Shown here: piece by piece, positions 6,897-64,000 of the stretch | How positions within the stretch are numbered: position 1 is the stretch's first letter | How the letters are laid out: the number at the start of each line of letters is the position of its first letter | From: Paralvinella palmiformis | Lineage: Eukaryota; Annelida; Polychaeta; Terebellida; Alvinellidae | Assembly (NCBI GenBank): GCA_025642065.1 | Contig: JAODUP010000030.1 | Location: forward strand, 631,501-695,500 | DNA: 64,000 nucleotides | Direction of reading: 5' to 3' | Notes under the pieces: model-generated | The model's input: only the letters and a program-made list of their open reading frames with translations | Database searches by the model: none | Told to the model about the DNA's origin: nothing | Program-made: the position numbers and the translations under genes

Positions 6897-7450
6897 ATGA
6901 ATTTGACACTGCTGCTCTTCTGGATAATCCTGATTGACTACATCAGCGATGACATCCAATGCGTCCGACTGACATATAACCCCTACCGAAGTCGGAGTTT
7001 GATAGAAAATAATCTCGCGGAATTAGACCCGGCAGATATAACATGTTCTAATGAAACGATTAGTTATAACTTCGATTATTATAATATACACGAAGAGTCG
7101 GAATATTCTAGATACACTCCCGAACTGGAAGAGATTCAGTGTTCTGGCAGGTGTCCGAATAGGTATCCGAACAACTATACGACGGAGGAGTTTATCAGTT
7201 CTACGCCTCTGGATATTGGCTATCCCGGATGTACGGATATTCCGAACATTTTACGCGTCACTTTTCCCGATTATGGTAACACGGGAGCGAGAGGACGAAT
7301 GAAGCGTCTAATAGGGTCCCCTAAAAAATGTGCCATTGCCGAAACAGTAACATTGACGACGGATAATGTAGATATGATCAGCCCCAACTGGCCAGATGAG
7401 GCGGTAACGTACACAATATGGATCAGACCAGAAGACGACAAAGCGAACGG

Positions 7451-7496
<46 letters not shown>

Positions 7497-9772
7497 GTGT
7501 GTGTTATAAAACTAGAAGTTATAATAGTACTGTAATTCTGATACATGAAATATATATGGCGTATATACGGCACATAGTAGTAATGAAGTTGATTATTATG
7601 TTGATGATGTTGTTGACGGTAATAATAATAATAATAATAATAATATTAATAATGCATTCTTTATTTAGTACTATCCTCTCAGTACCTACCACAAGATTAT
7701 ATTCCTTTGGTGATAATGGCGGCCTTGACCTGAACCTAAGAAGCGGCATTCTGAGATTAGAAGTAATGAATATTAACAAAACTTATCAGAGATACACAAT
7801 ACCAGGTGGAGTGTGGACTCATATTGCTTTATTGGTAATAAACGTTTTACTATTATTATTATTATTATTATTTATATATATTTATTAATGTATTCGGCAG
7901 TGTTTATTTATACATGCGTTCGTACGTGTGTGTTGGTAAGTAACTTATTTCACCTGCACATAACTTCATACACATTGTATTATCTGATGTTCAATAATAA
8001 TTATAGACGAAATATACACAAATGTGTACAATATATTTCGGGGGGGGGGGCAATATAACCTAGGTCATATATTTATGTGTACAAAAATAATACATTTACT
8101 CCGGATGTCCCTCATCCTGGACATTAATCGTTCTCGCCACTATCCTGATATTGATTCTCACTGATTAGAAATACATATCTAGCTATAATTATTTATTATT
8201 AGCCAAATAACATTGATTCTTAACTTAGTTTTTTTAAATCTCATATCCCTCTAATAAACATCAGCAGTTTTTTTTTTTTTTGGGGGGGGGTTGAAGCATC
8301 AATGCTCCCAGTTGTATTTTGTAATTTTAGTGTTTAGTGTGTGGTATATATATATATGTCTGTCAGTGTGTGTGTGCGTGTGTGTGTGTGTGTGCACGCG
8401 TACTGTTTTGCAAGGATTTTTCTCCGAATATTTTACTTATAAATCTATTCATAAACATTTTTATTGAAAATTAAATTTTATACCTGTTACATTCCTGACA
8501 TATAATATACTGGATAATAACCAGGAATTGAAATTTCTTCAATCTGGGGGGGGGGAACAGAAATATCTATTTTATGCTTTTTACCTTACAATGTATGACA
8601 ACAGTAAGTAAACTAGTCTAATGGACGACAATAAAATGACAGCTGTTCATATTATGAGGGGATAATTCCCTTTTATTCCACTCTTTATCTTTTCGGTGGC
8701 ACACAATATGGCCAGTCGAATATACCCATCATGTTATATTATTGGCCTTAAATGTGTTTCTTCTTCTAACTGCTCCACGGGCGCAGATATGTTTTGAAGT
8801 CTTCGTAATTGAGGCGTTGGTGAGGCATCTCCGGTTTCGCTCCGGGATCGCTCGTCACCGAAGCCTTTTCGCCACCTGAGCCATTCGCCACTGATGGCTG
8901 AACACAGTCGATACACATATATAATCACTTTAGCGTACTTTGCGCTAAAATAATTTTACTGGCAAATGGTCTCCTGTGGAGTGATATCGTAGGGAGTTAT
9001 TGTTGATTCCCAACGATAATATCAAATAAAACTTTCCAAACATTTCCGTACAAATTTCGGGTTCTAGTTAGTGAACTATAATGACCACTCGTCGGTATGT
9101 CGCAACCATTTCTCACCGTATATGTGAAAATGCTCGCTTTAAAGGATGATCATCTGTTTGTTATCTGTATATCTCTTCACTGGCTTCCTGTTCAACCTCG
9201 CATCATTTTCAAACTCTGCACTATTTCCTATTAAACCCTTTCTTCTGGAGAACATTCATATATATTTTCCACGCTTTCTTTGCCACCCAACCCCAAACAG
9301 CTCCGTTCATCTGATTTTCACTCGTTGTCTGTTCCCAGGGTTAAAACTCATACTGGGACTCGTGCTTTTTTAGTTGCTGTCCCTACTGTTTGGAATTGAC
9401 TCTCTGAACATGTTAAGTCATCAAATAGCATAGTTTCTTTGCGTCGACCATTTAAAAACTCACCTTTTCAGACTCGGTTATTCGTCCTAAGTTTCCTTTT
9501 CATCTGATCATTATTGATGAACCTTGTATATTGGCGCTATAGAAGTTTTGTAATTATTATTATTATTATATTACAGGTAGCCCAATCACCAGACGGAAAT
9601 GTAATGGCTCTATTTGCGAATGGAACTCTTTTAGGCCAGCCATTGTCGATGCTGATGCCAGCACGACAGAAGAGGGATCTCTCCGACTCAGGAGGGCTCA
9701 CTCGTGCCAAAAGAGAGTTTGGCGATGGTTCCACGCAGAGCTTCGTCTTTATTGGAGTGTCTGGAAAGCCGT
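6897..9772 (+). CDS. RTK exons 1-3: signal peptide, N-terminal region, main part of LamG-like domain
   Basis: Exon 1 begins with a hydrophobic leader ([16 protein letters not shown], then C22). An N-glycosylation-rich stretch with several cysteines follows, which I do not recognise. The LamG-like (concanavalin-type) fold starts near residue 140: the run YTIWIRPED at the end of exon 1, [12 protein letters not shown] and [10 protein letters not shown] in exon 2, and [13 protein letters not shown] and FVFIGVSG in exon 3 are the usual beta-strand signatures. This layout before a laminin N-terminal domain is that of usherin. Exon 3 carries two furin-type sites, RQKR (270-273) and RAKR (283-286), in a loop of the domain. 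Phases are 2, 0 and 1 at the three exon ends. Confidence 0.82.
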
Positions 9773-12700
9773 GTAGGTATCATGTACAATTAAACATAAC
9801 AATCTCAGGATTATATCCGCCATTAACGGAAAACAATACACATAAATGAAGGAGTGCCTTCGTTTTATTATCTACCTTATACAAAACTCCACAAAGACGC
9901 ACATTCATCGTTTCTTGTATATAATGATAGGATAGCTTCATGACGATGTTAATCTCGTTACGTCCAATTTCATCATCTGCTATCGTTTCCTTATTCAGAT
10001 TACGATGGCTATCAGTGTCATATGTCGGCATTGGAACGGTGTCAAAATATTGGACACGGCGTCTTTATAGAAGTACCACCAGGCGTAGATATAGACGAAA
10101 TGGAGGAGACTGCTAGGAAGGTTCTGGACAATGATACTTGTTCTGATAATACTCCACTTAGAGATTCCTTTCTGTGTACTGCACTTCTCCCTCCATGTTC
10201 ATCTTCTGGTGTATCAAAGCCTCCCTGCAAGAAGTTTTGTGAAGGTAAACCAATATATTTGTGTGTGTGTGTGTGTGTGTGTGTGACACAGTCACTGTGT
10301 GTGTGTGTGTGTGTGTAAGGTGCGTTTCTTAAGACGCACCTCCAAAAACCGCCGAAACCCACCTGCATTTAAGCAAATTATATAAATATTCATTAGCCAT
10401 GCATCTAATAGCAAACATCAAGCCGATGTTGTCATGTGTTTCGCAAATTACCATTATTTACCTAGCACTAGTAGACATTAGTCGGCGACAGGGTGGTTCA
10501 TAATTAGTTGGCATGGTCATTTGGTTGCTAAAGTGTGGAGATCATTAGCTGTCAGAGGGAAGTAGCAACTGATATCGTCTTGTTTTATACAGGTGATAAA
10601 AACACTGAATATCTCTGGTGGACGTAAATGGCATTGTGTTAGATTTTGATTGAGGATATTTGTAATAACTCCCATATTGTATAAATAAACACGCGCAGAA
10701 AGTCGCGCGCGTCTCTGTGTGTACATGTAGTGTGTGTACATGTAGTTTTCTCGTTTATTTTGCTAACGCTTGTAATGCGTATACACTTTCATAGTTTTTG
10801 GCCACATGGGTAGAGTGCGAGACTATTTACCTATGGTCATTCTGTTCGCGCCTCGGCCGTGGCACTATACTAGGAGGATTTTTCATCCAGCCGGGCAACT
10901 GGCAAGGTTTTCTCCACCGAACTAATTCAAAATTTATTTAGAGTTAGTCTCCGTGGGAAGCTATAAATTACAGACCATACGCGTCTCTCTCATTTCGGCT
11001 ATTATATTATATATTATAGTTATTTTATTCGCCCCACTTTTGGCAGTATTTTATTTGTTCCAGAATCCAGAGTTGCTATTATGTAGATTTGTTTAAGTTG
11101 GATGCTATACGCTGTACACTGCGGCGACAAATTATATATTTACCATATAGCATTTTCTATATTCAGTAAAGATATAATTTACTTTTACAGAATTTACAAA
11201 GGCTTGTCCGGATATCCCTTGGTCATGTGATAATTATTCCGATACCAACTGTATACAATCGTCGGACACTCCAGGTGAGTTCCAGTCTTCATTCTTGCGT
11301 CTCTTGTTAATCTAGTATACTACGAATATCAGGTACTGTTTGATGTGTTAATTATAAGAACAAGAATAGCAACGATAATAATAATAATAATAATATACAG
11401 TTTTTACTATGTCCATTCTGATCGAATATTATGATGACCTATTTTAACGGAAGTCCTGCTACATTGTGACATATTATCTGTGTACTTTCAGATTATCAAA
11501 TGTTCACGGGTTCTGTAAGAGAAGCAAAACTTTATCGTGGATTATTAACTGAACGGTAAGAACTGAACATGAAATTAATTAGTGTCCTTCATTTAGAGAC
11601 ATATGCAACCTGTTTTCGGCAAACATGAAGAAAAAAATCGCCAATGAATACCGGTATATTCTAAGAATATGGGAAGTTCACGGCATAAGTACTGACCCCG
11701 ACCGGTCTTTGGATGGAAAACATTTGATACTTGGGCCCGGGCTCCTCACCCAGTCGATTCCTGGCCGAAATTCAAAATATTCCTCATCGATTTCGGCTCA
11801 TAATATGATGGATAGCTAGCCTTTATAATTTACGGCGTCATCTCGCTGTCCATCTTCCCGTAGTGATGACATGTGATTGGTGGACAACGGGCTATATTAT
11901 GGGTCGCTGATAATAAGGAGACAACGACAGATATAATTGATAATACTCTCTCTGTTTCATGACCTCAGATGATGAAACGAATTTAAAAAAAAATAATATG
12001 TCTTAAATACGTCAAAACTTTTAGTTGTTGAGCTTTTGTTTATTAAATACAACCTTAAAAGACTTTAAATCTTGCTCTTGCGAAGAACTACTAGAACCTT
12101 CGGCCCGTATAACTAAACGTTTAGAAAAATATTAAAAAAACTAATTTTAACGAGTAAGCCAATCATAGTCCCAACCAATGTCATATTCACCGCCATTTTG
12201 TCTGAATATTTTGCGAAAACAGCCACGCACACACCACGCACGCACACAGAGAGAGTGAGTATGTGTGTGTGTATTCATTAAAACAAAACTTTACTGAGAG
12301 CTAACGCCATTGACCTAAAAGAAAACTAGACCGAGCAGTTAGTGGTGTGTGAATGAGCCGCCATCATCAAACAGCGCTGACTTCCGGTAGAGGCAAAAAG
12401 CAACGTTGAAGCGGCTTTGCTTCGAGTTTTGAACCTATGAATACGGACATTTATTGTGATGCGTGCATTATAATTTTGTGTGTGCAGACAATCTATATTA
12501 TTCCTGTTCTATTAAATGCCATGAAATATGTAAATGTCGTTTTATGTAAGTCCGTAGATCTAGTTTAGTTGGCATCAAACGTCAGCGATAGGCCGGGGGT
12601 TGTCGAACAGGCTAAATATTATAATTGTTAAGCTTAATTTCCCGGCAAAAAATCCCGCTTTAACAGCTATTTAAAATGTGTTCTTTATACTTAACGGTTA

Positions 12701-15700
12701 AAAAATATCCCGTTTGTGTTACTTCCACGCCCACGGCTTATGCAACTATCGACACAACAATAATTCACCACGTTTTCATTGACCGGAAGTTTTCTTTTAG
12801 GTCAATGGCTAACGACAATAACACAGGGGAACACCAGTTAGCCACCATAAAGTGATTCCACCTGGTGAATGTATTTTTGCGAACATACAGACAAACACGA
12901 ACACGCGTTTTTACATGGATTTATTTATTCAACTTTTGTTCATCTAACTCTCGTTTATCTAACTTTTCTTTATCTAAATTTCGTTTATCTAACTTTTGCT
13001 TAATTACCCTTAAACAGCAAGTGGTCAAGTTCTCGTCGTCCTCAATATAGAACATTCGTATTTCAGGGAGATCGTCGAGATATTTTCTGGTCAACTGCCG
13101 AAAGTATCACCCCAGAACGGATGCCTATGTCCATTCCCGGGATCCAGTATCATCAGCCCACTTATTTGTACCTCACTACTTAGCTCGTACAAATCAGTTT
13201 TACGATTGGGTCAACATACCATAGTACCTGAGGCCATTAATGACAAACTAGCTCCTGGAGAAACGACATCGCCTACTGTTTGGTACAGTAAGGACAACAC
13301 AGACAGGCTTATCATTACATTTGAATTCACCATACCCTTTTTGGTTAGTAATTAAAGGTTGGTCAACCGCATCAATCTTTTTGTACATTGTTTTTAAAAA
13401 GTAGATCACACACAATTAAATATTTAGATTATTGTTCTCGGCATTTGTATTACTATTAAATTTCCTGCTGCCACTTCTGGTCTTATTACCATAACTACCA
13501 CTATGACTACCTACTAATACTACTACTATTTCAACAGCTACTTTTACTACTACTACTACTGCTACTGTTATTATTATTGTTGTTGTTCAATTATCACCAC
13601 AGATCGATAATTTGACTTACCAACTGCCTCCTAATAAAGCGGGTTTGTTTGCTAGAAACACTACCATCCAGCTGCGTGATTCGATCACTTTGCAATGGAA
13701 GACTATAGGGTATTTAGTAACTGGTAATTGTTCGCGTAATCAAGTAGGACGGCTGCAAGGGCTAAAACAACCATCCTGTGAAGTCGTAAACACGTAAGTA
13801 TAGAGTAACAACTCAACTACATTTTATTAGTACTCTCGAAGCTGTTTTAAAATCTTTTCCATTGCTCCAATGGAACATGTTCAGCGTTTACGACAAGATT
13901 GTTTGAGATGTTCCCCCCAAAACTAATAGCTCTGTATCTTTGGTAAACGTCGCCAACATCGAACAAAATACAGTGGCGGATCGGGAGGGGGGGGGGTGAG
14001 GGGCGGTCAGGATCACACCTCTCAGAGGGCCAGAACCTTACCCCCGTCTCTAGTAGGGATCCTCCATTTTTAAATGCAATATATCATTTGGCGGCATAAT
14101 AACTACTAGTAGTACTGCGAATTTGACATTCTTAAATATGAAGTATAATATGAAGTATAATTGTGATTCGTCTGTTAAATAATAACTTAGTAAATTTCCG
14201 AAGCTCGCTCTCAAACACTATTGCCCTACTACTCGCCACGAGAAACATAAAGGTTTGTGTAAGACACGCTGGGTTGAAATATATTCTTGTTTGAAAACAT
14301 TTGGTGAGCTTTATGAAGACGTGGTCGCTTGCCTTGATGATATGGTTAATGGTTAATCCGGATGTTTGTCCAGAGGTTAATGAAAGTCGTTAGAATTCGG
14401 ATACTGACACCAAGAGCACGGCTCATCGTATGAAAAGTAGTCTGCAGAGTTTTAGAGTTATTGTAAGCTTCACAGTATTAAAGAATAGTTTCGATTATTT
14501 CAAAGGTTTGTCAGCTAAACTCCAAAGAAGAGATATTGACGTCTTTGAGGCATACGCAATGATTTCCGATATCAAACCAGAAATTCAATGTTTGAGGGAT
14601 GAGATTGATGTAGAATTCCAGAGATTGTACGACGAAGCAAAGCAGCTGGCTTCATATATAGATACTGAAAAGGAAACGACAAGGGTTCCAATGGTTCAGT
14701 GTAATAGGTCGAATATACCTACTGACACACCGACCTCTTCTTTATTACGAGAGATCAATTGGCATTCCTTTTATTGATATCTTACTGCAACAGCTGCAGA
14801 ACCATTTCTCTGCAGACAACTGTTGGCCAGTGAGTCCTTTGCTCAGTTTAATACATCTTTAATTGTCAAACTTTGGGATGCCTCCCCCAGAGCAATTTGA
14901 ATCGTGGCATGACGACCTGCTAACTCCGAGGTAATTAGATAACGAGGTATCCAGATGGTTCAATATATGCCGATTTACCCCAACATTATAATTTTCCTGG
15001 TATTAGGATGTAATCTGCTTGCCACATCTGCCGAAGCAGAGCGTAGTTTCTCAAAACATTTTTAAAGAACAACCTAGACGTTTGTCACGGGCAGCCTTTT
15101 CCACTAACTGATGTAGATTTCTATGAGGTAATAAATATTTTAAACATTATTGTTTCTTTCTCATAAGTATGCAATTTGAAATAAATCGTCAGTCTGCTTA
15201 TTAAACATGGTATTTATACATTTGAATAATTCGGTTTTGTAGTGCTTCAGAAGACATCTAAGCATGATGTGATTTTCATTTTTCGTCCACTTCACCAACC
15301 CATCCCATCTAGCCATTTTAATAATAATATGTGAATAATATTTTAAATTTATATAGCGCCCTATTCAGATAGAAGCTGCTCTAAGGCGCTTTACAATTAT
15401 ATTTACAATATTATTATCCTTGATTCAGACCTGTTTCAACCCAGCACATATCTCAACTCCCAAGGGAGCATACATCACGTCCTGTCAGGTACTCATTTTT
15501 TATGTGGATGAGTGAACCAGTCGCCACGTGACAACATTGCAGCTCACGGATCCTCGAACCCGCGACCGTTCGGTTACGAGTCCTACGCTCTAACTAACTG
15601 CGCTATCACGGCTCGATTGTGTCTCGCATAATGGCTTCTAAACAATACGGGATCCGTCCCTGAAATATACCTGTTTTCCGAGGAGAAAAAACCCCACCAG

Positions 15701-16478
15701 GAGTTTAGTTTTTAAGCCTTACTTTGGCATTTTGTCATTCTGCTAGAAACGTTCCAATAAACGAGTGGCATCAGCTCGTTTTGGAAGCGAGAGATACCCA
15801 GTGTGTGGCTGGGTCTCTTTCTGCAGTTGTAGAAATTTCTGAAATGTGAACAACAGTCCACTCGTCATAAAATGGATATTCCAAACGCAATGATTCGTTC
15901 GGTATGACTTGAATGTTGAAAGTCCCAGAAAACTATCAGCAGCGAAATTAGAAAAAAAGAATCTCTTTATTCGTTAAACGTTAATACAATCGTTTCGTCT
16001 TGCAGGTTTACAAGCAAAGTATCTATTTACTTTCTGGATCGACGTTCCGGCCTGCTATATGAATGGGAAAGAATAAGGATACATCCGTTTATTTTTGACG
16101 CTTTTTCGGGATCTGCTATCCGATTTATACTAGACGATCACATGATTAAGACCAATCGTTTCTATGGGATTTCTGATATACAGGTTTTTGGATGGTGAGT
16201 ACAAAAAGCGAGATATTAAAATTGGCTAGATATATTATTGTCGCAAACAACCAGTAATTTATAGGTTATGTTTAATAAAAAAACAAAAACATACAGGTAT
16301 TTCTCGTTTATTATTGAAAATGTAGGCCAGTCAATGAGAGCTGTGATTGTTTTAATCCGGATACAAGTTGTAATATATTTAATGGTACCTGTCCTTGTCG
16401 ACCAGATGCCGGAGATCCTGAAGTTACACATTACACGTGTGTAAGTCGTTTGTCTATTATACACACATACATATATAC

Positions 16479-16562
<84 letters not shown>

Positions 16563-16693
16563 TAGTTGTATGTATATTTATATTTATAGAGGTAGGTCTC
16601 GAAGGATGTTTAGATATGTTGATGTTCTGTGCCTGTTGCCTCTCTATGTGTATCCTAAAACATACATACATACAGTACATACAGTACATACAG

Positions 16694-16730
<37 letters not shown>

Positions 16731-17354
16731 CTCACGCACATACGCACACATACACACACACACTTTATCTCTCTCTCTCTCTCTCTCTCACTAACTAGAT
16801 TAGATACACCAAATTAATATTTTAATTATACATGTATATTTAAAATGTTTAGTTTCCGTATATACGAAACGACAACAACACGGCTCTACCCGCTGTCTTT
16901 CCACCTTACGGACCCAGATCTGGGGGTACTCATGTCTACATCCTTGGGGGATTCTTTGGTACCGGAAATGACACATTCGGTGTAACTATTGGACACTCAC
17001 TATGTACTATATTAGAGAGGTATGTATACACTAACGCCAACTGAAACACTAAAGTCACCCAACATGGGAACGAATTACTCTTGATGAACTGATACGATTA
17101 ATCTAGTAACTAAGAAGTACATAAAGATGCTAATTGTTCTGTTGTTTCAGCTCTGAGAGAAGTATTCATTGTTTGACCAGTGAGACCGGAGATGTTCTAT
17201 ATACATCTTTACCTATAGCAGTTACTCTAACGTCGGGAAGAACTAACACAATAACTATAGTCACTGAGGAAACCTTCATGTTTAAAGAGGATCCCATTAT
17301 AGAAAGTATCGAGCCTCTAGACACATTCCTCAGGTAGATGGATATACAAGTTTT

Positions 17355-17397
<43 letters not shown>

Positions 17398-17967
17398 AAT
17401 GCAGATTTCATAGCTCACTTTTTGTTATGTTATTTTGAGTGCAGTTTACTTATGGACAACTTGCCAGACAAATACTTAACTGTTATCAATTTTATTTCTG
17501 AAGATTGTTTGATTTATTTTAAGTAAAGACTCAATCTGGCGAGATTTACGAAAAAAGGCGATGAATAGTCAGTAGTTTGATGTAACAGTTTAATTGATTA
17601 AGTTAGTATAGCTGCAACTAAAGATCCAACTGGACCAAGAGATTATTACGAACAATATTTATATGTTTTATATGTTATATGAAATTATATTTTTTGGAAA
17701 AAAATGTTCCTAGTTGGCAATAAGTTTTACGTGTTTAAATCTTTCTGGATACCAGAGGCGGTATTCGGCAGACAGTGATAGGACAGTATTTAGATTCCGT
17801 CTTCGTTCCAACTATGAACATCACCATTGTCTACACACAAAACAAAATATCGACGCTATACCCACAAAAGGCCGAGGTTAGTAACTTTATCCGTTTATTT
17901 TCGTTTGCAAAAGAGTCATTTGTCGCTGTAATTATGGAAATAGAAAAAACTATTCCGTCTAAATCCC

Positions 17968-18003
<36 letters not shown>

Positions 18004-21000
18004 TGAGCTCCGGTGGCCTAGCGGTTAAGTATCCGGCACTTGGTGCCAACGGTCACAGGTTCGAACTCTGTAAGAGGTTGAAACTTTTCCAGAGAATTAT
18101 TTAAAATAAAGAGGGACGTTGAAACCCCACTGAGGACGTAAAACACTCTGGCAGGGACCACCCTCATGGTATTTCAGCTCCATCTTTCCGTACTGCTCCC
18201 CTGTGAGTGGTGGGGGAGGAGGTTCCTCAACCGCTCCAACATAGAGGCTGTGCTGAATAAGCGACAGCCTGGGGATTCTCCCCGAACAACAAAACAAACA
18301 CATGCATCTACCAACACCCTCCAAACACGTAGATAATTACAACAACCCGATCAACCTTTACACAATGTTATTATTCGGCCTCTATAGATGTCTTTTGTTT
18401 AACACATTTCCAGATTTGTACGGTTGTCAACAGCACGCTGATGTACTGTCCTTCTCCGGCTATAGATAATCTTCCTCCGGATGAGCGAAAATTTCTATTT
18501 GACGACTCAAACAAGACATCTCGACGAAGAAGGTCCCTACAGTCCATCGACAGTGGGAGATGGAGGGAGAAACGGGAGCTAGAGTTTGGACTGATAAACA
18601 GGAACTACTTCGAGTTCTACGTCGGCTTTGGATTGGACGGCGTCAAACGATATCACAACGTCAGTGAGACGTTACCCGAGTATGGCACGATCAAAGTGTT
18701 CGAGAATCCTAGCATCTACAAGTGGGATGCGAATGGTAAAGATTTGGTGAGGACATTCGCTGCGTATAAAGGCGAAACATTCATCACGATCGAGGTACGC
18801 CATTCACTCGCCAAAAGTTAAGCCAAAGCGGGGGGGGGGGGGTATGGAATCTTGTGATTTGTTTGTAATAATAATAATAATAATAATATATGATATTTAT
18901 ATAGCGTCCTATTTTTTTCTTCTATAGGGTAAGAACCTGTTATACGGTTGTACTAGAGACGATTATAGAGTGACAATAGCAGATGAAATTTGCGTCGTAG
19001 ATACTTTGTATTCTAGTCAGTTACTCTGTTTACCTCCAAAGAAGAGGCCTAAACTTGGAACAATACATATAAATGGAGCACCACCAGTTAAGGTTTGTAC
19101 TAGATCTTTGAGCAGTTAGATCAATTCTAAACCAAATAATCGAAGTTTCTAAACACATCATGCCTATGAGAGATAACACTCTGAGCCTTGTTCTAGGTGA
19201 CTGTCGGTAACATCAATCAGTTGGTGGGCTTCCTTAAGTATCACGAAACTGCTTGGGACAATCCTTCTGTAAAGTCGGGTATCATCGCCTTGATCGTGAT
19301 CATCATTCTTCTTGCCATTGGTGTAGCCATTGCCATTTGGTGGATGAAGAAACGAAAACAAGCTTTGGCTGACAGAGAAACAGCTGAGAGCAATAAATAT
19401 AGTATGTATGGCTTGATCTCTATCAAATGGTCCCCCCCCCCTCTGTGTGTGTGTGTGCTTTAAATTATTCGTATTTACATTATTTCTTTGCGCTAGCATG
19501 TGATATTTATGCTATTTTGGATGTTCGCTTCATCAGGATGTAAACAACTTTAACAGAAGACAAATTACATTTTGACATTCCACAAATGATATCCGTCCGC
19601 CGATTTACCAATCGTCAGCCATTTGAATACTTTTATCTGTCAATCCCTCACATATGACAATAATATTATTTCCAGGTACCCCAAAAACTATTTGGTCTAC
19701 TTTACCCAATGACGTAAAAGCCGAAATAGAGCCCTATTTAAAGAACAGAGAATCGCTTAAACTCGGAAGAATTGTTGGTCAAGGTTGGTCTCTTCTTTTT
19801 CTTTGATGTTTCTGCATTTTCACAAAATAATATCCGTGACGTTTTGATATTTAAATCTAATATTACTGGATATACCAATAGGATATATTTAAACACTATT
19901 TCCTAATTATCCAAATGTGCACGTTTCAGGTCAGTTTGGCAAAGTCTACATCGGTCGCTATGAAGAACAATCAAGTCAACCAATTCTTGTTGCTGCCAAA
20001 ACGATAAAAGGTGAGATATCCAGATAAGGATATTTGTTCAGTTCTAAGGAAAAACTCTTGAAACTGTCTGGCATTACGACCTATGTTAATGTTGTTAACA
20101 CAGGACAAAATGCAGAAACGCAGGACAAATGTAGAAGCAGGGAAGCTACCGAGGCGAACACAGCGCCTGAATGGCAGCAGTAAATCAAATCAAAACTTAC
20201 TAAAACAAATTCTGCGCATGAGTGGCGAAAAATCAATACGAGAACATAAAAAGCGCACTCGATATACTTCGGTCCTTGCAAATCCGTGCAAAGTACAACG
20301 GAAATGTTACGAACTAACTAGGTACCGTTAATCACATTGTACGTTCAGTTCGGTACAGCCGGGTATGTGCTAAAATACGGGAAAATAAGGATAGATGATT
20401 GTTGAATGGTCCTCGGACATTTAGACTGACGTTTTTCCGTAACAGTTGTCATTATAACTCACATCTGACATTTTGTTATTTGGCAGATAAAGCCAGCTTT
20501 CCTGTAGTAAGGATTCTCTATTTTCCATAAAGGTGAAGACTTCACTTGTTCGCCTTTTACCCCCCGGAAACCACCCATACAATCCACTAACATCGTCAGC
20601 TGTCCGTTGAGTATTCTCTTTCTAGTTATCAGTTACAGGTCCATAACTGAGGCAATAATCCGTCATCGTCTGACATCAGGTACTCCACTTATGGCTGAGT
20701 AAACGAAATAACACTGGCCAGTTAGTGGATTCGAACCGAGGAGTTCCCAGTTCCTTGTGAATCGGGTTTGTCACTGAGCCATCTACAATGTTATACCGTG
20801 TGGCTGTTTTCTATTTCTTTAGATAGCGGTGTGAATGCCAAAGATCTGCTGGAATTTCTAGAAGAAGCTACGCTGATGAAGGATTTTCACCACGACAACG
20901 TTCTATATCTAGTTGGTGTGGTGCTACAGGAGGGCAAACCGTATGTCCTCTTACCACTGATGGAGAACGGGGATCTCAGGCAGTTCCTACTCAATCCGGC

Positions 21001-22854
21001 TAATGTGAGTCTATTAACGTTTTCCTCAACGGCTTCTGGCGCCGTTATGGGATCGTGTTCGTATTCGTGAATGTGACCTAACTGGTTACGCCAGAAGGGT
21101 GTATCGTCTTTCACTTCGATTCAATACCATTTAGCCTACCATGTGAACAAATGTGGCCACAAAACAGCGACATTTCACACTTTCAGAGTCCGTATTTTTC
21201 TATGATTTCCACTTTCAGACCTTCACGGTCGGTGATCTGCTAGAATTTGGTCTACAGGTGGCTCACGGCATGGAATATTTGGCGATGTTGAAGTTCGTTC
21301 ATCGAGACTTAGCAGCGAGAAATTGCATGTAGGTGAAATGCATAATAAAAATATAAGCTCTCTCTCTCTCTCTCTCTCTTCCCTCCACCATACATTATTT
21401 GACGCGAGTGTACTTCCTTAATAATGAGATTACCTTCTTTTCTTTAGTTTTACAATATTACTATTTACTCAGAAATCTGAAGAAAATAAATACATTAAAT
21501 TATTTTACGCTCCCCTGTTAACATATGATAGGGTAAGCAGAGATAGAATCATCAAAGTTGCCGATTTTGGCTTGACTCGTGACATATATAGCAACGAGTA
21601 TTACCGAGCTGAGAACAAGTCCCGCCCCCTACCGGTGAAGTGGATGGCACCGGAAGCTCTGGATGATTTCAAATTTACAACAAAAAGTGACGTGGTAAGC
21701 GATGATAAATCAGTCTATGAATAGGTTGAATATGCCAGATAAAAAATCTAAAACTGATTGTTGCGACTTTGCTTAATACTACATGATAACATGTGTGCGT
21801 CTGTGTGTGTTTTATTAAGTCGGCCCAAAATCGCTTTATTATTTAGCATTTGAATAAGTTGTAGGCCTATAGGGCAAATCGGCTTATGAGCCTATATATA
21901 TATATATATATATATATTTCCTGGTTTACCTAGTGGTCTTATGGTGTACTGTTGTGGGAGCTGTTGACTCGTGGAAAGAAACCATATGCTGACATAGACA
22001 GCTTTGGCATGAAGAATTATCTAAAACAAGGAAATCGGTTAGAAAGACCCGTAGTTGCTTCCGACGAAATGTAAGTAGCACGAGACAAAGAGTGATGTAA
22101 AGTGTGTGTGGGAGGGATGTCATATGTGTTATGGTACGTCTTTGTTGGGACATCTTTATTGACTGGCTATGTAAACGCATTGAGACGCCGATATTTTCTA
22201 ACTCCAACCTTTTCCAATCCCGACAGCTACGAGTTGATGACCCAGTGTTGGCAGATGAATCCGGAGAACAGACCACAGTTTTCCGATATTGTAAAAGAAC
22301 TCGGTGACATACTAAACGGAGCGCAGGCGACGGACCAGGACGCCGATATGTCGCTGGATAACGGCACCCCGCCAACAACAGTCGGTTACGAATTTCTGAA
22401 GAGGTCGGTTGACTACGGGACGGATAGAGAAGGGTACGATAAGCTACATCGGGCCGAGGGCTACCTCGATATGAATGGCGGAGTAGATTATGTCCAAGCT
22501 GCCGAGGAACTCGGCATCAAACTCGACCCGACGTCCAGTGGATATCTAGCTCCGATCGATCAACGGCTCGCCGACTCTAGGGAAAGGGAAAAGCCAATCC
22601 CAGCACCCAGAAATAAGAAAGGAGCCTCGCCCTATCCACCCAGATATGAAAATGTCGACGTCTTAAAGAAGCAACTCCGAGACGATGAAGAGACGCCGAT
22701 GGCTAACGCGGATCTGAAACACGAACAGGCTACAGATACCCTACAGACAGAAGACATCTGTTTGGTCGAGGTATCCGCTCCCGTTAATGATCAGTCAAAG
22801 AGCGGATCCCATTATCAAAATGTGCCCGATATAGAGAAGACGGAGGCTGTCTAA
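6897..22854 (+). CDS. MET-like receptor tyrosine kinase with usherin-like/Frizzled-CRD ectodomain (23 coding exons)
   Basis: Predicted single-pass receptor tyrosine kinase. Exons: 6897-7450, 7669-7834, 9577-9772, 9999-10244, 11191-11274, 11492-11555, 13067-13343, 13603-13793, 16006-16194, 16326-16440, 16853-17019, 17151-17333, 17756-17876, 18414-18794, 18928-19092, 19197-19401, 19676-19783, 19930-20010, 20823-21004, 21219-21328, 21532-21694, 21934-22070, 22227-22854. All junctions are GT..AG, and the lengths sum to 4713 nt (1570 residues plus stop) with no frame break. Order: signal peptide 1-22, LamG-like ~140-305 and 416-440 with a Frizzled CRD (306-415) inside it, laminin N-terminal ~441-655, laminin EGF 656-694, IPT domains ~700-1033, TM ~1062-1083, kinase ~1129-1395, tyrosine-rich tail. 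The start at 6897 opens a classic hydrophobic leader; a possible acceptor at 6855 suggests a 5' noncoding exon. The kinase resembles MET/RON. The ligand is unknown. Gene identity below family level is not assigned. Confidence 0.9.
7451..7491. repeat. (GT)n microsatellite at an RTK splice donor
   Basis: The donor GTATGT of RTK exon 1 is the first unit of a GT tract of about 40 bases, so the repeat begins at the splice site. Confidence 0.9.
7835..9147. other. RTK intron 2, 5' part
   Basis: No gene seen. Contains (ATT)n, oligo-G runs near 8041 and 8280, and a TG tract near 8367-8394. Confidence 0.5.
9148..9575 (+). mobile_element. 5'-truncated LINE (family 1), 3' end only
   Basis: The + strand encodes a worn version of the end of a non-LTR reverse transcriptase protein ([20 protein letters not shown], then [14 protein letters not shown]), colinear with the copy at 23600. 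Its 3' end GGCGCTATAGAAGTTTTGTA plus (ATT)n runs into the acceptor of RTK exon 3. Family resembles CR1/L2-type elements. Confidence 0.8.
9999..11274 (+). CDS. RTK exons 4-5: Frizzled-type cysteine-rich domain cassette
   Basis: Exons 9999-10244 and 11191-11274 encode about 110 residues with ten cysteines. The most diagnostic piece is [10 protein letters not shown] followed by SKPPCKKFC, then a further CPDIPWSC and NC; this is the spacing of the Frizzled CRD found in Frizzled, ROR and MuSK. In those proteins the domain binds Wnt lipid or related ligands; Wnt binding here is only inference. The cassette starts and ends in phase 1, so removing it keeps the frame and rejoins exon 3 to exon 6 in the middle of the LamG-like domain. 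Intron 4 begins with a (GT)n tract at about 10260-10316 soon after the donor. Confidence 0.8.
10781..11000. repeat. Possible diverged tRNA-derived SINE
   Basis: The piece GGCCACATGGGTAGAGTGCG resembles a tRNA A box and is followed by a GTTCGCGCCTC segment, but no second copy was seen in the window. Weak call. Similar weak SINE-like sequence lies at about 11690-11900. Confidence 0.3.
11492..16440 (+). CDS. RTK exons 6-10: end of LamG-like domain, laminin N-terminal-like domain, laminin EGF
   Basis: Exon 6 (11492-11555) supplies the last LamG strand, [17 protein letters not shown], and exon 7 continues [14 protein letters not shown], then CLCPFPG. This matches the usherin junction, where a LamG-like domain ends and a CRCPG motif opens the laminin N-terminal domain. 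Exons 7-9 hold the rest of that domain: [26 protein letters not shown] and finally [11 protein letters not shown]. Exon 10 (16326-16440) adds a short laminin-type EGF repeat with six cysteines (CDC ... [10 protein letters not shown] ... C). Only one EGF unit is seen, against many in laminins and usherin. The laminin N-terminal domain is diverged, and its usual first cysteine pattern is partly changed. Confidence 0.72.
12300..12815. mobile_element. hAT-type MITE (family F), copy 1
   Basis: Terminal inverted repeats CATTGACCTAAAAGAAAACT (from 12308) and its inverse ending at 12807. Flanked by GCTAACGC and GCTAACGA, an 8-bp target duplication with one mismatch. Eight-base duplications are typical of hAT transposons. 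No coding capacity. Lies in the RTK intron between exons 6 and 7. Confidence 0.85.
14230..15110 (+). pseudogene. hAT-family transposase relic (ZMYM1-like type)
   Basis: Inside an RTK intron. Pieces in order: [20 protein letters not shown] (14250-14310), the 115-residue open stretch 14430-14777 ([20 protein letters not shown]), then [20 protein letters not shown] with frame breaks, and finally LPHLPKQ beside an overlapping frame reading [12 protein letters not shown], the hAT dimerisation signature near 15030. Stops and frameshifts make it inactive. Transposase genes of this type catalyse cut-and-paste transposition. Confidence 0.75.
15316..15616 (-). repeat. tRNA-derived SINE, family A, full copy
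   Basis: Minus-strand head from 15616: GCCGTGATAGCGCAGTTAGT with B box GGTTCGAGGATCC. The 3' part is GCGCC...TATATAAATTT followed by an AT-rich tail. Full companion copy at 55012. Confidence 0.88.
16481..16558. repeat. (CA)n microsatellite, about 78 bases
   Basis: Pure CA run in RTK intron 10; further TA, CA and CT runs follow to 16790. Confidence 0.95.
16853..19092 (+). CDS. RTK exons 11-15: IPT/TIG domains with furin-type cleavage sites
   Basis: Three immunoglobulin-like IPT/TIG folds, as in the MET and plexin stalk. IPT1 (exons 11-12) has [17 protein letters not shown] and GHSLCTI. IPT2 (exons 12-14) opens with [20 protein letters not shown] across the exon 12/13 junction and continues to [11 protein letters not shown]3 (exons 14-15) has [26 protein letters not shown] and SSQLLCLPP. 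Exon 14 (18414-18794) also carries RRRR at residues 888-891 and REKR at 902-905, both fitting furin-type processing. MET is cut by furin too, but within its Sema domain, so this position differs. The number of IPT units could be three or four; boundaries are by eye. Confidence 0.82.
17358..17394. repeat. (AT)n microsatellite
   Basis: AT run of about 36 bases in the intron after RTK exon 12; another lies at 17969-18001 beside a SINE. Confidence 0.9.
18002..18303 (+). repeat. tRNA-derived SINE, family B, internally deleted copy
   Basis: Head GAGCTCCGGTGGCCTAGCGG with B box GGTTCGAACTC; about 60 bases present in the other copies after the tRNA part are missing. In the RTK intron before exon 14. 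Confidence 0.85.
18868..18915 (-). repeat. Fragment of SINE family A / LINE 3' tail
   Basis: (AAT)n followed by TATTTATATAGCGTCCTATT, the 3' terminus of family A. It lies 12 bases before the acceptor of RTK exon 15 and fills the intron upstream of it. Confidence 0.7.
19197..22854 (+). CDS. RTK exons 16-23: transmembrane helix, MET-like kinase and C-terminal docking tail
   Basis: Exon 16 encodes a helix of about 22 residues rich in Ile, Val and Ala, followed by the stop-transfer run KKRKQ. The kinase shows the glycine loop [11 protein letters not shown] (exons 17-18), catalytic Lys1161 in [16 protein letters not shown] with Asp1255, DFG at 1273-1275, and an activation loop ending NEYYRAEN whose paired tyrosines 1285/1286 sit where MET has its two activating tyrosines. 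[20 protein letters not shown] is also MET-like. All catalytic residues are present, so it should be active. The tail has YENV and YQNV, which fit the pY-x-N Grb2 SH2 motif, plus further tyrosines. The stop is at 22852-22854. Confidence 0.93.
20652..20790 (-). repeat. tRNA-derived SINE fragment (head region)
   Basis: Minus strand from 20788: GATGGCTCAGTGACAAACCC, a tRNA-like A box, then B box GGTTCGAATCC. Lies 33 bases upstream of RTK exon 19. Family unlike A, B or C. Not a tRNA gene: the arms do not pair cleanly. Confidence 0.55.
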
Positions 22855-23083: not shown

Positions 23084-23089
23084 AATAAA
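23084..23089 (+). terminator. Polyadenylation signal of the RTK gene
   Basis: AATAAA lies 230 bases after the RTK stop codon in AT-rich DNA; it gives a short 3' UTR. No competing AATAAA is seen closer to the stop. Confidence 0.6.
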
Positions 23090-31939: not shown

Positions 31940-34664
31940 GAAATTATTATTATTATTATATACCATATTTATATAGCATTCTTTTCATAAACTAGATCAG
32001 GTTCAAAAGTGCTTTACGATACAAGACTTATAAACGTAAAATATTAAAATGACATGGAATAATATATATTAAATGTAAAATAAAATATTACAATATAGTG
32101 GTGATTAATGTTTTTGACGTAATAGTATAATTTTAAAAAAAAGACAAATAAAATAAAATAAACTTAATCAACTAAATTAAATCGTTATAATATACTGATA
32201 TAAGAATATATCCAACTGCTATTAACTAGAAGATAAAAATAAAAAATAAACATGTTATATATACATATTATTAAGAATGACTAGATTTGTTCAATGGCTA
32301 TAGTGAACTAGAAAATAATGTGTTATTAAAGTTTTTTTTGAAAGTCTCTGTTTCTCTTAGATTTTCTAATATCGGCAGGCAGTGCATTCCAGAGACTGGG
32401 TGCTGCATAAATAAAACATCTGTTGCCATATGCTGTGGTCCACATCTTAGGTACTACCAATAGTTGTGTATTCTGGGATCTTAGAGTACTGCCTGGTGTA
32501 TACATCTGTAACATGTCTCTCATGTGTGATATGATTATGTCTAGCTGTTATAGTCACAATGCGAGCTGCCATGTTCTGTACACGTTGCAGTTTACTGATC
32601 ATGGTATCTGGTAGTCCATGGATGAGCGCATTACAATAGTCCAGTCTCGACATTACAAGCCCATGCACCAATGACTGACCAGTAGCATCGTTAGATAGGT
32701 AACGCCTGATACGTCCAATGCTGCGCAGTTGTGCATATCCAGATCTGCATATTGAAGCGACTTGTTGTGTCAGTGTCATGTTGGGATCAAACATGACACC
32801 TAGATTACGCACACATATTGTGGATGTTATTCGAGCATTTCCTACTTGTACAGACACTTTGTCCATGAACTGTGAATTATGTTTTGATGTAAAAAGCATG
32901 ACCTCTGGTTTTTTCATTATTTAGCTTCAGCATACTCTGGTGCATCCATGCCTCGATTTCGATTAGGCAGTTCTCAATGCGTGTCAATGCTTCAGCCTGG
33001 ATGACATCATCTTTTGGTTTGAATGACAGTCCATGACGCCTTATGACGTCACCAAGGGGCTTTGTATAGAGAACGTAATTTTTCGGACTCAGAACAGAGC
33101 ACTGGGGAACACTGTACTCCATCAATACTGGCAATGACAATTCACCTTCAACAGAAACAGTTTGGAAACGTTCGCTAAGATATGATGTCATCCACGCTCG
33201 CGGTATACCTGTGATACCAAAGTGTTGCTCCAATCGTTCCAGTAGTGTTTGGTTATCAATGGTATCAGATCGAGCATGATAAGCACAGACACACAACCCT
33301 TTTCCAGAGAGTCCAAAATATCGTTATTCGCCTTGAGTAATGCCGTCTCTGTTGAGTGGAACTTACGGTAGGCAGACTGAAGTAATTGGTGGAGACAATT
33401 TGACACAAGGTGATGCTCTATGCGGGCATCCACAACTTTTTCCAGGATTTTCGAGACAAATGGTAGATTAGACACTGGCCTGTAGTTCTTCAATATCTCT
33501 GGGTCCAGACCAGATTTCTTCAGGAGTGGTCTTATCCGAGCACATTTGAAGCACATTGGCACACTACCCGCCTCCATGGACCGATTAATTAATGCAGTCA
33601 CTAGGGGGGACCAGCTCATCCAGGCACTGCTTGAGGAGTCATGTTGGAATCGGATCGAGTTCACATGACTTATCCGGAGCTTTGGCAGTGGGTAATTCAG
33701 ATACATTTTCAGACATTTGTACTTGCCTTGTTTGAAGGTCACTTCTGATGTTATCGACCTTATTGATGAAAAAAAATCACCAAAACACTGTGCTAATTCT
33801 TTAGCAGGAACACCACTTGACAGGGTACGCCCCTCACCATTACCCATCAAATGTTTTGATATTCTATAAATGCCTTTCTGATCATGTCCACAAGATTTAA
33901 TCTTCTCTGAGTAGTAAGAAATACGCGTTTGTTGTAGAAGCTTGTTTGTAATTGCACACTGTTCCCTATAAATTTGGTGGTCTATGGCTAACTTGGAGCA
34001 ACGCCATTTACGTTCCAGTTTCCGTCGTAGATGCTTGGCCTCGTGCAGTTGGTTACAGTACCATGGACATGAGGGCCTTAATACAATTATCTCTGTGCAA
34101 AGTGGAGCATGTTTATCTACGAGTGAATGGAGTCCATTATTGTATGTATTTGCTAGTTCATCCACAGAACCATTGAAGGGATGCAGTATAGTGGAGTCTG
34201 TTATATCTCGCTTGAAGATGTCCACATCAATGGCGCGTAGTTTCCTGAAAGACACTGTCTTGTGGATGGGTCCAGGGTCTGTGACTTCAACATCTGACAC
34301 GATGGTACAAGTATTTCTCGTTATGACAACGTCCAGTGTGTGACCATGAACATGTGTAGGCTAACAAACATGTTGTTGTAATGTAAGCCATACAGATCTA
34401 GGATACCAATAAAACGCTGTGCATCACGGTCATCTACAATATCCAAATGGAAATTCATGTCTCCTACAATAACAATGTCATTTGGGATGGTAGCATAATT
34501 TGCTAGGAATGTTGGCCATTCGTTCTCCAGAAATGTAGTGGTCTTCAACCCATTATTCTTAGAGGGTGGGGGTCGATATATGACAGCGAGACGAACAGAT
34601 ATACCACCGACTTCCAGATCGCAGTCCATATGTTCAAAATGTGTGAAGTTTCCATCATTACTAG

Positions 34665-34715
<51 letters not shown>

Positions 34716-35465
34716 TATATTTAATAAAGCGCCCTTACTAGCTGGAGCCATTCAAAGGCGCTGTGATGAGATGAGATGTGATGAGACGGAGTAGTATAGC
34801 GGATTTGTAAATAAGGGCTACACCACCACCTTTCCTGCCACGTCGGGGAATGTGTTTCATCACATAACCAGTGGGAACAAGTTCACCAATACAAGTTTTA
34901 TCAATCGTACTACTCTACCATGTTTCGGTGAGGTCCCCAACGTCAAAGTCATTAGTGAGTACATAATCACAAAGAGGGAGGGTTTTATTTTTGATTGACT
35001 TGGGATTGAAACAGCAGATCCGTAGATGCTTTTCTACGGTTGGTTTACGATCAGATTCTCTTTTTATCTTCAAAAGATTATCTCTGTTCACATGTAGGGT
35101 GGATTTATTAGATAATGTTCCAACTGGATGTAGTATATCCCGCATACGCACAATAGATGGAATACTTCTCGAACAACCAGCATTATCCGGTGCAGATTTT
35201 TTCACTGGTACACTCAGCAATTTGAGATTGTCGAAATTGGCTCCAGCTTGTTTGGTGACACAATTGAACTTGACCGCATTGTAGTGTTTACTAAAGACAC
35301 TGCGAATCGGCCTAATTAAGCGTTTCCCCGTCTTTGTTCCCCGCCTGGTGTGTGGCCAACATATATGCAGCTTATGCAGTGTGTTGTGCCATGGTTGACT
35401 GGCTGTTGTATACATACAATACCTCAGGCCAAGCAGAAACGATCGTGCGTATGTGGTCATGGTTC
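31940..35465 (-). mobile_element. Near full-length but inactive non-LTR retrotransposon (LINE family 2)
   Basis: Read from 35460 downward: an upstream region, the start of an APE-type endonuclease (LRICCFNPKSIKNKTLPLCD, 35030-34970), GRKGGGVALIYKS, VIYRPP and VGDMNFHLD (34590-34430), then the reverse transcriptase (NYRPVSNLPFVSKILEKVV at 33500-33440, QSAYRKFHSTETALLKAN, SYLSERFQTVSVEGEL, then SFKPKDDV where YADD is expected), the C-terminal SRLDYCNALIHGLPDTMISK and SLWNALPADIRKSK, and a 3' end with (ATT)n near 31940. Frameshifts separate the parts and the active site is altered. A SINE/LINE tail (34663-34770) is nested in it. CR1/L2/Jockey-like group. Confidence 0.88.
34663..34770 (-). repeat. 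SINE/LINE 3' tail nested in LINE family 2
   Basis: (AAT)n of about 48 bases followed by AATAAAGCGCCCTTACTAGC and AAAGGCGCTGTGATGA, a diverged 3' end of the kind seen in SINE family A; it interrupts the endonuclease region. Confidence 0.65.
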
Positions 35466-58959: not shown

Positions 58960-59932
58960 TTATTTCTGGCACACAAATGTGTCTAATGTCGGTAAAGGTG
59001 GCAATTTCTTTGAAACAACAGTTCGACTTGGCCCAAACTTGGACTGCTTTTTTGCTGGGGCATTCACTTTAAAACCCTGTGAGGTGATGAACTTTTCATG
59101 CCCACCCAAGCCATTGTAGCCCTTGCGGATGGAACTTCCCACCTCATCCAACCCAATTCCTGGTCGCTTTTTGAAAAGGTTATAGCCTAAAATGCTGTGA
59201 ATATTCGACACATCAGACATCTGAGGAGGAGGCTTTCTGGAGCCAGCAGTTGCAGCTGATGTGATCTTCACATATTTTGTATCCACATCCCTATCAAAAG
59301 TTTTTCTTTGTAAAATTGGTCCATTTTCAATTTGATCAACCGTATCCCTTGATGAACAGGCAGGACTGGCAAACATATCGGGACTCATCATGCTCTGGTT
59401 AGGATCGGTCAACTTCAGTTTCTTTTTTGGAGGTGTCAACAGTGGTGCCGGACTCTCGTATAAAAGGCGATGAGCAAAACTACGCACGGTGTCTGTTGGT
59501 GACTCCAGAGCTTTTTCCAGAGCACTAAGCTTCTTCTTCAGCTTCAACACTTCACCATCAGCATCATGGAGTTGATTTGTCAGCAGCTCCACTTGCTTTT
59601 CAGCAGCAACAACCGCTTTGGTCTTTTCAGTGACCAAACGTTTACTGATGTTAAAATCCTTCTTCAGCTTCTCGGCCGTCTCACGTAGAGATTTACACTC
59701 CTGTCTCTTGCTCTGTAATTCCTTCTGAAGAATGCTGCACCACGTTGACAGCTGCTTCATGTCTCCAGTCGACAAGATCCTATGAATGTCTTCACCATTT
59801 CCTAATAAAACGAATTACAAAACATTATTTATTCACAAGATAAAGAACAATAAGTTCCCAGTGAGCTGTTTCTACACAGTATGCATTATGAAAGAGTGAA
59901 AAGATACTTAACCGCAGTCATCAGCAATTTCC

Positions 59933-59970
<38 letters not shown>

Positions 59971-60384
59971 TAATGATGAGAAACACATAAAAATCCTTCT
60001 TACAATAATAATATCCACAATATATCAGTCAAGATATTTCTATGGCATTTTGGTAGAACCCGAGGTGCTAATAAGACAACTACAGATTAGCAGGATAAAT
60101 AATAATCAATAATGTAGAGTGATTTCTTGAAGAGTAGGCTTTAGTCATATACTACTAGCATGACGGTGTTTGTTGGCATGAAGTGTGAAGAAAATAAATT
60201 CTTAGCAGATATTTTACCATTTACCATCAGCTCCACATTCCGTAAACAAGCAAGCTTATTACGAAGCATCTTGGCTTCCTCTCGTGCACCAACAGCTTCC
60301 TTTTCCAATTCTTTGTGAAATTTCAATTCTTTTTTTAGCATTTCCACATTATTTTTCTCTTGTTTGTATAACTGATCCAGAACC
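58960..60384 (-). CDS. TRAIP: TRAIP E3 ubiquitin-protein ligase, C-terminal two exons (partial)
   Basis: TRAIP is a nuclear RING E3 ligase that acts at replication forks (replisome unloading, crosslink repair). Exons in gene order: 60384-60218 and 59801-58960 (stop at the low end). The first encodes a coiled coil (VLDQLYKQEKNNVEMLKKEL ... AREEAKMLRNKLACLRNVEL); the second continues it (QLSTWCSILQKELQSKRQE ...), then has LLYESPAPL, matching the human ESPAP motif, GYNGLGGHEKFI, matching human FDGLGGRTKFI, and a last LDTF where human TRAIP ends in its PCNA-binding box. Intron phase 1 joins the exons in frame. The RING and first coiled coil must lie on exons above 60.4 kb, or outside the window; I could not find them. 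An AATAAA overlaps the stop codon (58959-58964). Confidence 0.88.
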
Positions 60385-60602
60385 CTGTAAGAAAGAATAA
60401 ATAAAAGGCAGAGCTTTTGGCAACTATAGTCTATACTGTGATTATCTGATGGCTTCATTATGTTTTTGAAGAGTAAGCAAGCAGAGAGAGAGAGAGAGAG
60501 CAAGTTGTTATATATCACTGGTAGTCAAATTTTGATATGATTTCTCCAATATGAAACATGCCAATCATACAGATAAATGACATTTAAAGACTACATCTCT
60601 AT

Positions 60603-63720: not shown

Positions 63721-64000
63721 AGTTGTATGATTTAAATGATGATGATTACTAATTTATTAAATATGTATATATAATTTAAAACAGTGATTCATAAAATGTT
63801 GCATGTGTCATAATTGTATAGTTATTTATCCCATTAAAAACTAATTTTAAATAAGATATTTAGCTATGTGAATATATATATATATATATTATTTTTCTAT
63901 TTATAAATTAATATTACAAATATGTGTGTCAAATATGTGTGTGTGCGTGTGTGTTATTATTTTTGAGCATATTATTATTTCTATGGTTCATTAATTGTGT
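63721..64000. other. AT-rich end of window
   Basis: Short TA and TG runs; nothing recognised. Confidence 0.5.

Follow-up and report, generated by a model that had tools for sequence, protein, structure and literature searches.

The DNA analysed here (the window) is a stretch of 64,000 nucleotides from the polychaete Paralvinella palmiformis (contig JAODUP010000030.1, positions 631,501 to 695,500, forward strand), in which a gene at positions 6897-22854 (+ strand) was studied. The gene is predicted to encode a single-pass receptor tyrosine kinase (RTK) related to MET, in which an usherin-like head replaces the Sema and PSI domains ahead of a stalk of TIG (IPT) domains, and in which a Frizzled-type cysteine-rich domain (CRD) lies inside a laminin G-like (LamG) domain.

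Exon chain and predicted protein

The exon chain was rebuilt independently from the raw sequence, and 23 exons joined in frame to give exactly 1570 residues, as had been claimed in a first-pass annotation of this DNA. All 22 introns begin with GT and end with AG, no internal stop is present, and the chain runs from an ATG at 6897 to a stop codon ending at 22854. The 1570 residues are contained letter for letter in a public protein of the same species, LSH36_30g06009 (P0001, 1605 residues), whose record is titled hypothetical protein. The public model has an extra 5′ piece of 35 residues, which was left out here because by eye it has no signal-peptide character. The features are as follows.

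6897..7450 (+): exon 1; start codon, signal-peptide-like start by eye (13 residues), unnamed N-terminal stretch, start of LamG (Laminin_G_3 from residue 155, Pfam)
7669..7834 (+): exon 2; LamG (Pfam)
9577..9772 (+): exon 3; LamG as far as the penultimate strand, ending in phase 1
9999..10244 (+): exon 4; Frizzled CRD, cysteines 1-7, with flanking introns of phase 1 (Pfam Fz; PDB Frizzled chains)
11191..11274 (+): exon 5; Frizzled CRD, cysteines 8-10
11492..11555 (+): exon 6; last LamG strand (18 residues), in frame with exon 3 if exons 4-5 are omitted
13067..13343 (+): exon 7; first part of laminin-N-like domain; an in-frame acceptor at 13022 would add 15 residues
13603..13793 (+): exon 8; laminin-N-like domain (relatives' profile)
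16006..16194 (+): exon 9; last part of laminin-N-like domain (relatives' profile)
16326..16440 (+): exon 10; laminin-type EGF module (conserved cysteines; alignment to P0187)
16853..17019 (+): exon 11; TIG/IPT 1 (Pfam; MET and plexin-A1 TIG matches)
17151..17333 (+): exon 12; TIG/IPT 1 to 2 (Pfam; PDB TIG matches)
17756..17876 (+): exon 13; TIG/IPT 2 (Pfam; PDB TIG matches)
18414..18794 (+): exon 14; end of TIG 2, linker with two furin-type sites (RRRR, residue 888; REKR, residue 902), start of membrane-near TIG
18928..19092 (+): exon 15; membrane-near TIG (Pfam; PDB TIG matches)
19197..19401 (+): exon 16; transmembrane helix (residues 1060-1082), start of juxtamembrane stretch
19676..19783 (+): exon 17; juxtamembrane stretch and kinase start; the glycine loop GQGQFGKV crosses the exon 17/18 border
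19930..20010 (+): exon 18; kinase, remainder of glycine loop and catalytic lysine (VAAK)
20823..21004 (+): exon 19; kinase N-lobe
21219..21328 (+): exon 20; kinase, HRDLAARN
21532..21694 (+): exon 21; kinase, DFG and activation loop (11-residue stretch)
21934..22070 (+): exon 22; kinase C-lobe (12-residue stretch)
22227..22854 (+): exon 23; kinase end and tail with nine tyrosines, including YLDM (1441), YENV (1502) and YQNV (1558)
23084..23089 (+): AATAAA, candidate polyadenylation signal read from the sequence

For exon 7, the acceptor at 13022 (1585 residues) was dropped in favour of that reading tttcag/GG (exon start 13067), which gives 1570 residues and matches the public model. Long GT/CA dinucleotide runs were seen at 7451-7495, directly into which the exon 1 donor leads, and at about 16480-16560. 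Intron 8 holds open pieces (14186-14862, +) that by eye resemble transposase remnants; Pfam gave nothing for 14394-14777 (E up to 0.01).

Pfam gave the kinase (PK_Tyr) at 3.9e-92 and TIG in three stretches at 2.8e-18; no Sema or PSI domain was found (E up to 10), and no immunoglobulin, FN3 or kringle domain was listed. The glycine loop, lysine, HRD, DFG and APE motifs are present, as are DIYSNEYY in the activation loop and a 19-residue stretch spanning exons 21 and 22. The kinase was compared with the PDB over the best 60 of 2598 sequences, among which the best single-kinase matches were MET (279.5 bits) and RON (279.0 bits), followed by TYRO3 (245.9), MER (243.5), AXL (243.2), ROS (229.5) and FGFR3 (225.5); an EGFR chain totals more, but adds up two copies scoring about 157 bits each, and no ROR or MuSK chain was among these 60. 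A MET chain also matched the TIG region (53.5 bits), and plexin-A1 TIG was matched as well. Both the MET-like kinase and the MET-like IPT stalk of the first-pass annotation were supported. Furin-type sites occupy by eye a similar place, after TIG 2, in the relatives P0078, P0088, P0183 and P0073, and two-chain processing is possible.

Relatives and the composition of the head

A search with the N-terminal part as query, which detects only relatives sharing five-letter words, scored 7984 candidates and yielded 61 proteins; apart from P0001, no other head of this type was seen among them, query cover being at most 20% and those inspected matching by the kinase. A search with kinase-first rearranged rows retrieved P0187 (source tag lgn, 1258 residues), in which Laminin_G_3, Laminin_N, three EGF_laminin modules, TIG and kinase all score above the Pfam cut-offs. 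P0187 suggests a complementary DNA (cDNA), because its contig of 4846 bases leaves little room for introns. Its laminin-N domain (Laminin_N, 6.5e-8) starts with CxCPSSHP and is followed by laminin EGF; in the PDB this laminin-N/EGF stretch matched laminin and netrin chains, mainly through EGF. From EGF through to the kinase, P0187 and the window protein can be aligned over 786 columns at 33%.

Six further relatives carry the laminin-N label: P0078, P0088, P0101 and P0183 from Watersipora (P0101 included by alignment), P0181 from Bugula, which is partial and begins inside EGF, and P0075 (source tag lgn). EGF_laminin scores above the Pfam cut-off in P0088 and P0183, and P0078 matches F5_F8_type_C (1.9e-4) and Laminin_N (0.0028), both under the cut-off. 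LamG is weak in P0183 (0.015) and was recognised by eye in P0078. P0075 matches F5_F8_type_C (0.0026) and has parts of the order of laminin-N-like domain, EGF, TIG and kinase. By alignment, profile and tree, the window protein has the layout of this group, with laminin-N-like and EGF domains ahead of TIG and a MET-like kinase. The first-pass annotation had named no described RTK with the whole combination and had suggested a search of other lophotrochozoan genomes for the same order; apart from the CRD, that order was found in P0187 (source tag lgn), LamG included, and in part in the bryozoans. What stands apart is the CRD, absent from the Pfam matches of all seven relatives (two of which lack the region). 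Because the relatives share the remaining layout without it, the CRD and its position are the special part of the window protein.

Laminin_G_3 matched the whole chain at 4e-6 (27.5 bits against a cut-off of 27.6) and the N-terminal part at 6.9e-7 (30 bits), and Fz matched the whole chain at 8e-5 and the isolated domain at 1.2e-6 (29.5 bits). The Fz stretch contains exactly ten cysteines, in a spacing that fits the CRD pattern. Against the PDB (E up to 10), 16 of the 21 sequences listed for this stretch were Frizzled chains (best E 0.0046), mostly over its middle part, and Frizzled CRDs have ten cysteines according to the available text of PMC6938638. Exons 4 and 5 together encode residues 306-416 and form a symmetric 1-1 module of 330 nucleotides, coextensive with the ten-cysteine module.

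Joining exon 3 to exon 6 brought Laminin_G_3 to 42.1 bits and added a second matched stretch; the score was 36.4 bits with the CRD in place, 32.0 bits for exons 1-3 only and 31.1-32.0 bits for nine shuffled tails. A piece of 83 residues around the join, taken alone, matched profile positions 114-150 of 151 (12.7 bits, E 0.15). The 18-residue stretch of exon 6 plus the following EI aligns to the last LamG strand of P0187, P0183 and P0078, and two-sequence BLAST paired exon 6 with this position of P0187, weakly (E 0.48, 8/18 identical). With a local LamG profile of three relatives, the join scored 5.5 bits, exons 1-3 alone -1.9 bits and none of 300 shuffles as high as the join, while stretches extending into laminin-N scored higher (14.4 bits with the CRD in place, 19.3 bits for the exon 6 stretch alone); this profile extends into the start of laminin-N, which makes it a poor control, and the case rests mainly on the Pfam profile. 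Judged by these matches, the CRD interrupts LamG before its last strand rather than standing between LamG and laminin-N. The simplest history would be that a symmetric exon pair entered an intron lying within LamG, and the arrangement looks like a clean example of a receptor kinase gaining an inserted domain by exon shuffling. Exons 4-5 are possibly a cassette pair that can be skipped in frame, and forms with and without the CRD are predicted, because skipping keeps the frame and restores an uninterrupted LamG.

If exons 4-5 were a rare cassette, or never included, the main product would be a LamG/laminin-N MET-like receptor without a CRD. The symmetric phases, the gain in LamG bits on skipping and the relatives fit this, Fz being matched in none of the seven (Pfam; E up to 10 for P0075, P0078 and P0088, up to 1 for P0101, P0181, P0183 and P0187). 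Two of them are uninformative, since P0181 starts inside EGF and P0088 at laminin-N, and a LamG available for interruption exists only in P0187 and P0183, and by eye in P0078. The ten cysteines, the open frame and the splice sites are, however, all intact, and the public model includes both exons, so that a main product of this kind is considered unlikely.

The laminin-N-like domain of the window protein was found at the expected place by a profile built from six relatives, the window protein excluded (E 6.7e-8), the best control values being 0.15 among proteins not used in building and 3.2 for 200 shuffles; hhalign gave 82%, against at most 1.2% for 40 shuffles. It is probably a divergent domain of this type, and is the weakest of the domain calls. 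For P0075 and P0101 the label is based on alignment and eye, because neither has a significant independent profile match. Laminin EGF has no Pfam match in the window protein, and its single EGF module was called from conserved cysteines and alignment to P0187. A real receptor with another jelly-roll domain (F5/8 type) in place of laminin-N is rather improbable: the window stretch scores only F5_F8_type_C (0.039), the same family is matched by P0075 and, ahead of Laminin_N, by P0078, and the laminin-N part of P0187 is itself weak in the PDB (laminin beta-1, 14.4 bits, domain E 0.17), but P0187 has a clear Laminin_N match followed by laminin EGF, and the relatives' profile finds the domain in the window protein. 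The earlier description of Sema and PSI as replaced by LamG, CRD, laminin-N and EGF held in Pfam for the absence of Sema and PSI, for the kinase and TIG, for LamG on the N-terminal part and, below the cut-off, for Fz; laminin-N and EGF had no Pfam match and were called from the relatives' profile and by alignment, and the CRD was found to interrupt LamG.

Kinase trees and other features of the window

The main tree comprised 42 rows, including PDB chains of MET, TYRO3, MER, MuSK and ROR2. In this tree the window kinase and 12 relatives formed a 13-row group beside MET with moderate support (85/85), 21 rows of MET, RON, Met-LP and one immunoglobulin-bearing receptor lay apart from it (85/31), and ROR2, MuSK and two further kinases separated from the MET/TAM rows with a support of 100/99. 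In a 54-row tree, the window group appeared in a 7-row version supported by 96/90; a 51-row tree, from which TAM, ROR2 and MuSK were left out, placed the 13 rows unresolved at the base, outside the MET branch (95/66). Joining ROR2 and MuSK with the window row cost 22.3 log units and was borderline in the approximately unbiased (AU) test (p 0.052). The placement beside MET is a best estimate from these trees, no proof; the distinct receptor class proposed earlier agrees with the best tree and with the split from ROR2 and MuSK, but a place inside MET was not rejected (AU p 0.128). The nearest kinase relative, P0184 (58%), has a TIG-only head, as does P0106. Among these kinases the head attached to the TIG-kinase chassis seems to vary, and loss or exchange of the laminin-N head may have occurred repeatedly.

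Further receptors were observed. In Owenia fusiformis, P0185 and P0205 are MET-like TIG-kinase receptors with ephrin-receptor-like heads, and P0205 has a trefoil domain (Pfam, above cut-off). In Ptychodera flava, a MET-like kinase and TIG are joined to cadherin-type repeats (P0086 from listed domains, P0104 by eye). P0111 (source tag lgn, 1021 residues) has a MET-side kinase in the trees and immunoglobulin domains, with no TIG listed. P0064 of Amphimedon queenslandica (2216 residues, predicted) has Fz, SRCR and several kinase copies, and lay outside the MET group in the trees.

Elsewhere in the window, positions 32447-35463 (-) have the appearance of a broken non-long-terminal-repeat retrotransposon (RVT_1 2.1e-5 in 33188-34360, under the Pfam cut-off), to which a piece at 62915-63731 (-) is similar by eye. 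A probable exon of the phenylalanyl-tRNA synthetase beta chain lies at 53740-54069 (+; B5 domain 6.9e-6, slightly under the cut-off), and two coiled-coil-rich open pieces at 58960-60524 (-), the first of no clear Pfam family, resemble by eye the exons of a single gene.

Interpretation and comparison with known systems

One gene for a single-pass MET-related RTK, with an usherin-like head in place of Sema-PSI, a TIG stalk and a CRD inside LamG, is given a probability of about 0.8. Several points weigh against it. Laminin_N has no Pfam match in the window protein, the stretch matching only the F5/8 family as given above; the E value of the laminin-N profile depends on the relatives used (six, 6.7e-8; four, 3.7e-4; three, 0.093), and two of the six, P0075 and P0101, were not found at significance by profiles of the others. 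The Fz score is under Pfam's cut-off of 32.1, both on the whole chain and isolated, and a single-sequence fold of exon 4 alone was poor (predicted local distance difference test 46.4) and uninformative, and was not used. The support of 85/85 for the 13-row group is not decisive; P0073, within this group, is listed with the plexin-type TIG_2, and three of the 21 MET-side rows (P0092, P0116 and P0194) have no listed Sema, so that absence of Sema does not mark the group. Besides the place with MET, kinship of the window row with TAM was not rejected (AU p 0.144), and forcing the eight rows labelled laminin-N into one clade was marginally rejected (p 0.034). Finally, the receptor is predicted here from genomic sequence and a public gene model, and a ligand of matrix or Wnt type is an inference.

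It is very unlikely that the model fuses two genes, one (exons 1-10) for a secreted matrix protein of usherin type and one (exons 11-23) for a short receptor with TIG and kinase, as in each of the seven relatives labelled laminin-N, cysteines of the laminin-EGF type (recognised by eye or alignment) stand in a single protein with TIG and kinase, in six of them together with further head sequence, and the likely cDNA P0187 carries head and kinase together. Several of these relatives are themselves gene predictions, the exon chain comes from genomic sequence rather than transcripts, the intron between exons 10 and 11 is repeat-rich and 412 bases long, and P0184 has by eye a signal-like peptide directly ahead of TIG; on the other side stand an unbroken frame and order and the agreement of the public model. 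That the protein is a plain MET orthologue with a Sema diverged beyond recognition is hardly credible, for although the kinase and TIG are MET-like, the AU test allows a place with MET and some MET-side rows have no listed Sema, the head gives positive matches to LamG and Fz, as P0187 does to Laminin_N and EGF, neither Sema nor PSI was matched, and the best tree places MET across a branch from the window kinase.

As a single MET-related receptor, the protein would be made, reach the cell surface and be cut at the furin-type linker. Two copies would be brought together by a matrix or lipid-bearing (Wnt-type) ligand, the paired activation-loop tyrosines would be phosphorylated by the kinases in trans, and the tail would lead to Grb2 through its YxN sites and to PI3-kinase through YxxM. 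MET-type receptors work by ligand-driven pairing, trans-phosphorylation of paired activation-loop tyrosines and adaptor docking at YxN (Grb2) and YxxM (PI3-kinase); matrix partners are common for LamG and laminin-N domains, and CRDs bind Wnts or lipids. A wider proposal, put forward only tentatively and thought unlikely as a whole, is a distinct lophotrochozoan receptor class whose MET-type signalling came to respond to the basement membrane and, in the lineage of this worm, to Wnt-type lipid ligands through a CRD placed in a LamG loop, with splicing of exons 4-5 as a matrix/Wnt switch.

The window protein resembles MET and RON in its kinase, which has them as best PDB matches, its paired-tyrosine activation loop, its TIG stalk and its YxN tail sites, and differs from them in having LamG, CRD, laminin-N-like and laminin-EGF domains where no Sema or PSI was found; its furin-type site lies in the TIG linker, whereas that of MET lies in Sema. 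Usherin has the order LamG, laminin-N, laminin EGF, which the window protein probably shares (laminin-N by the relatives' profile, EGF by alignment), and the CxCPSSHP start of laminin-N in P0187 is also usherin-like; usherin has neither kinase nor TIG, and the single EGF and the LamG-nested CRD of the window protein are further differences. In comparison with the TAM receptors (AXL/TYRO3/MER), kinase bits are lower than with MET and RON and no immunoglobulin or FN3 domain is listed. ROR and MuSK are likewise RTKs with a Frizzled-type CRD, a domain linked to them in the available text of PMC8662651, but their kinases are far apart from that of the window protein (100/99), in which no immunoglobulin or kringle domain is listed and the CRD is nested in LamG. 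The first-pass annotation had named ROR and MuSK as the RTKs with such a CRD, a list that is not exhaustive given the Fz and kinase domains listed for the sponge protein P0064.

MET and Met-LP receptors have been described in annelids and molluscs, and Met-LP, which combines a MET-like kinase with a plexin-type ectodomain, in echinoderms as well (available text of PMC6374515). Met-LP is like the window protein in its MET-like kinase and TIG-bearing ectodomain, and unlike it in having a complete plexin ectodomain with Sema; receptors without Sema would not be findable by that survey, because Sema was its key criterion, and the words laminin and frizzled are absent from its main text. In the available text of an oyster kinome study (PMC4883820), IPT, TIG, Frizzled and laminin do not occur as whole words, and no account of a laminin-N MET-like RTK was found in the literature searched, to which subscription journals mostly did not belong; the lineage is apparently undescribed. 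Closest in layout are the receptors of Watersipora, Bugula and source tag lgn, with laminin-N-like and/or laminin-EGF domains, TIG and kinase. MET is usually treated as a plexin-related Sema receptor, and if a MET-like lineage bears an usherin-like head, then quite different ligand readers have been attached to the chassis of TIG and kinase.

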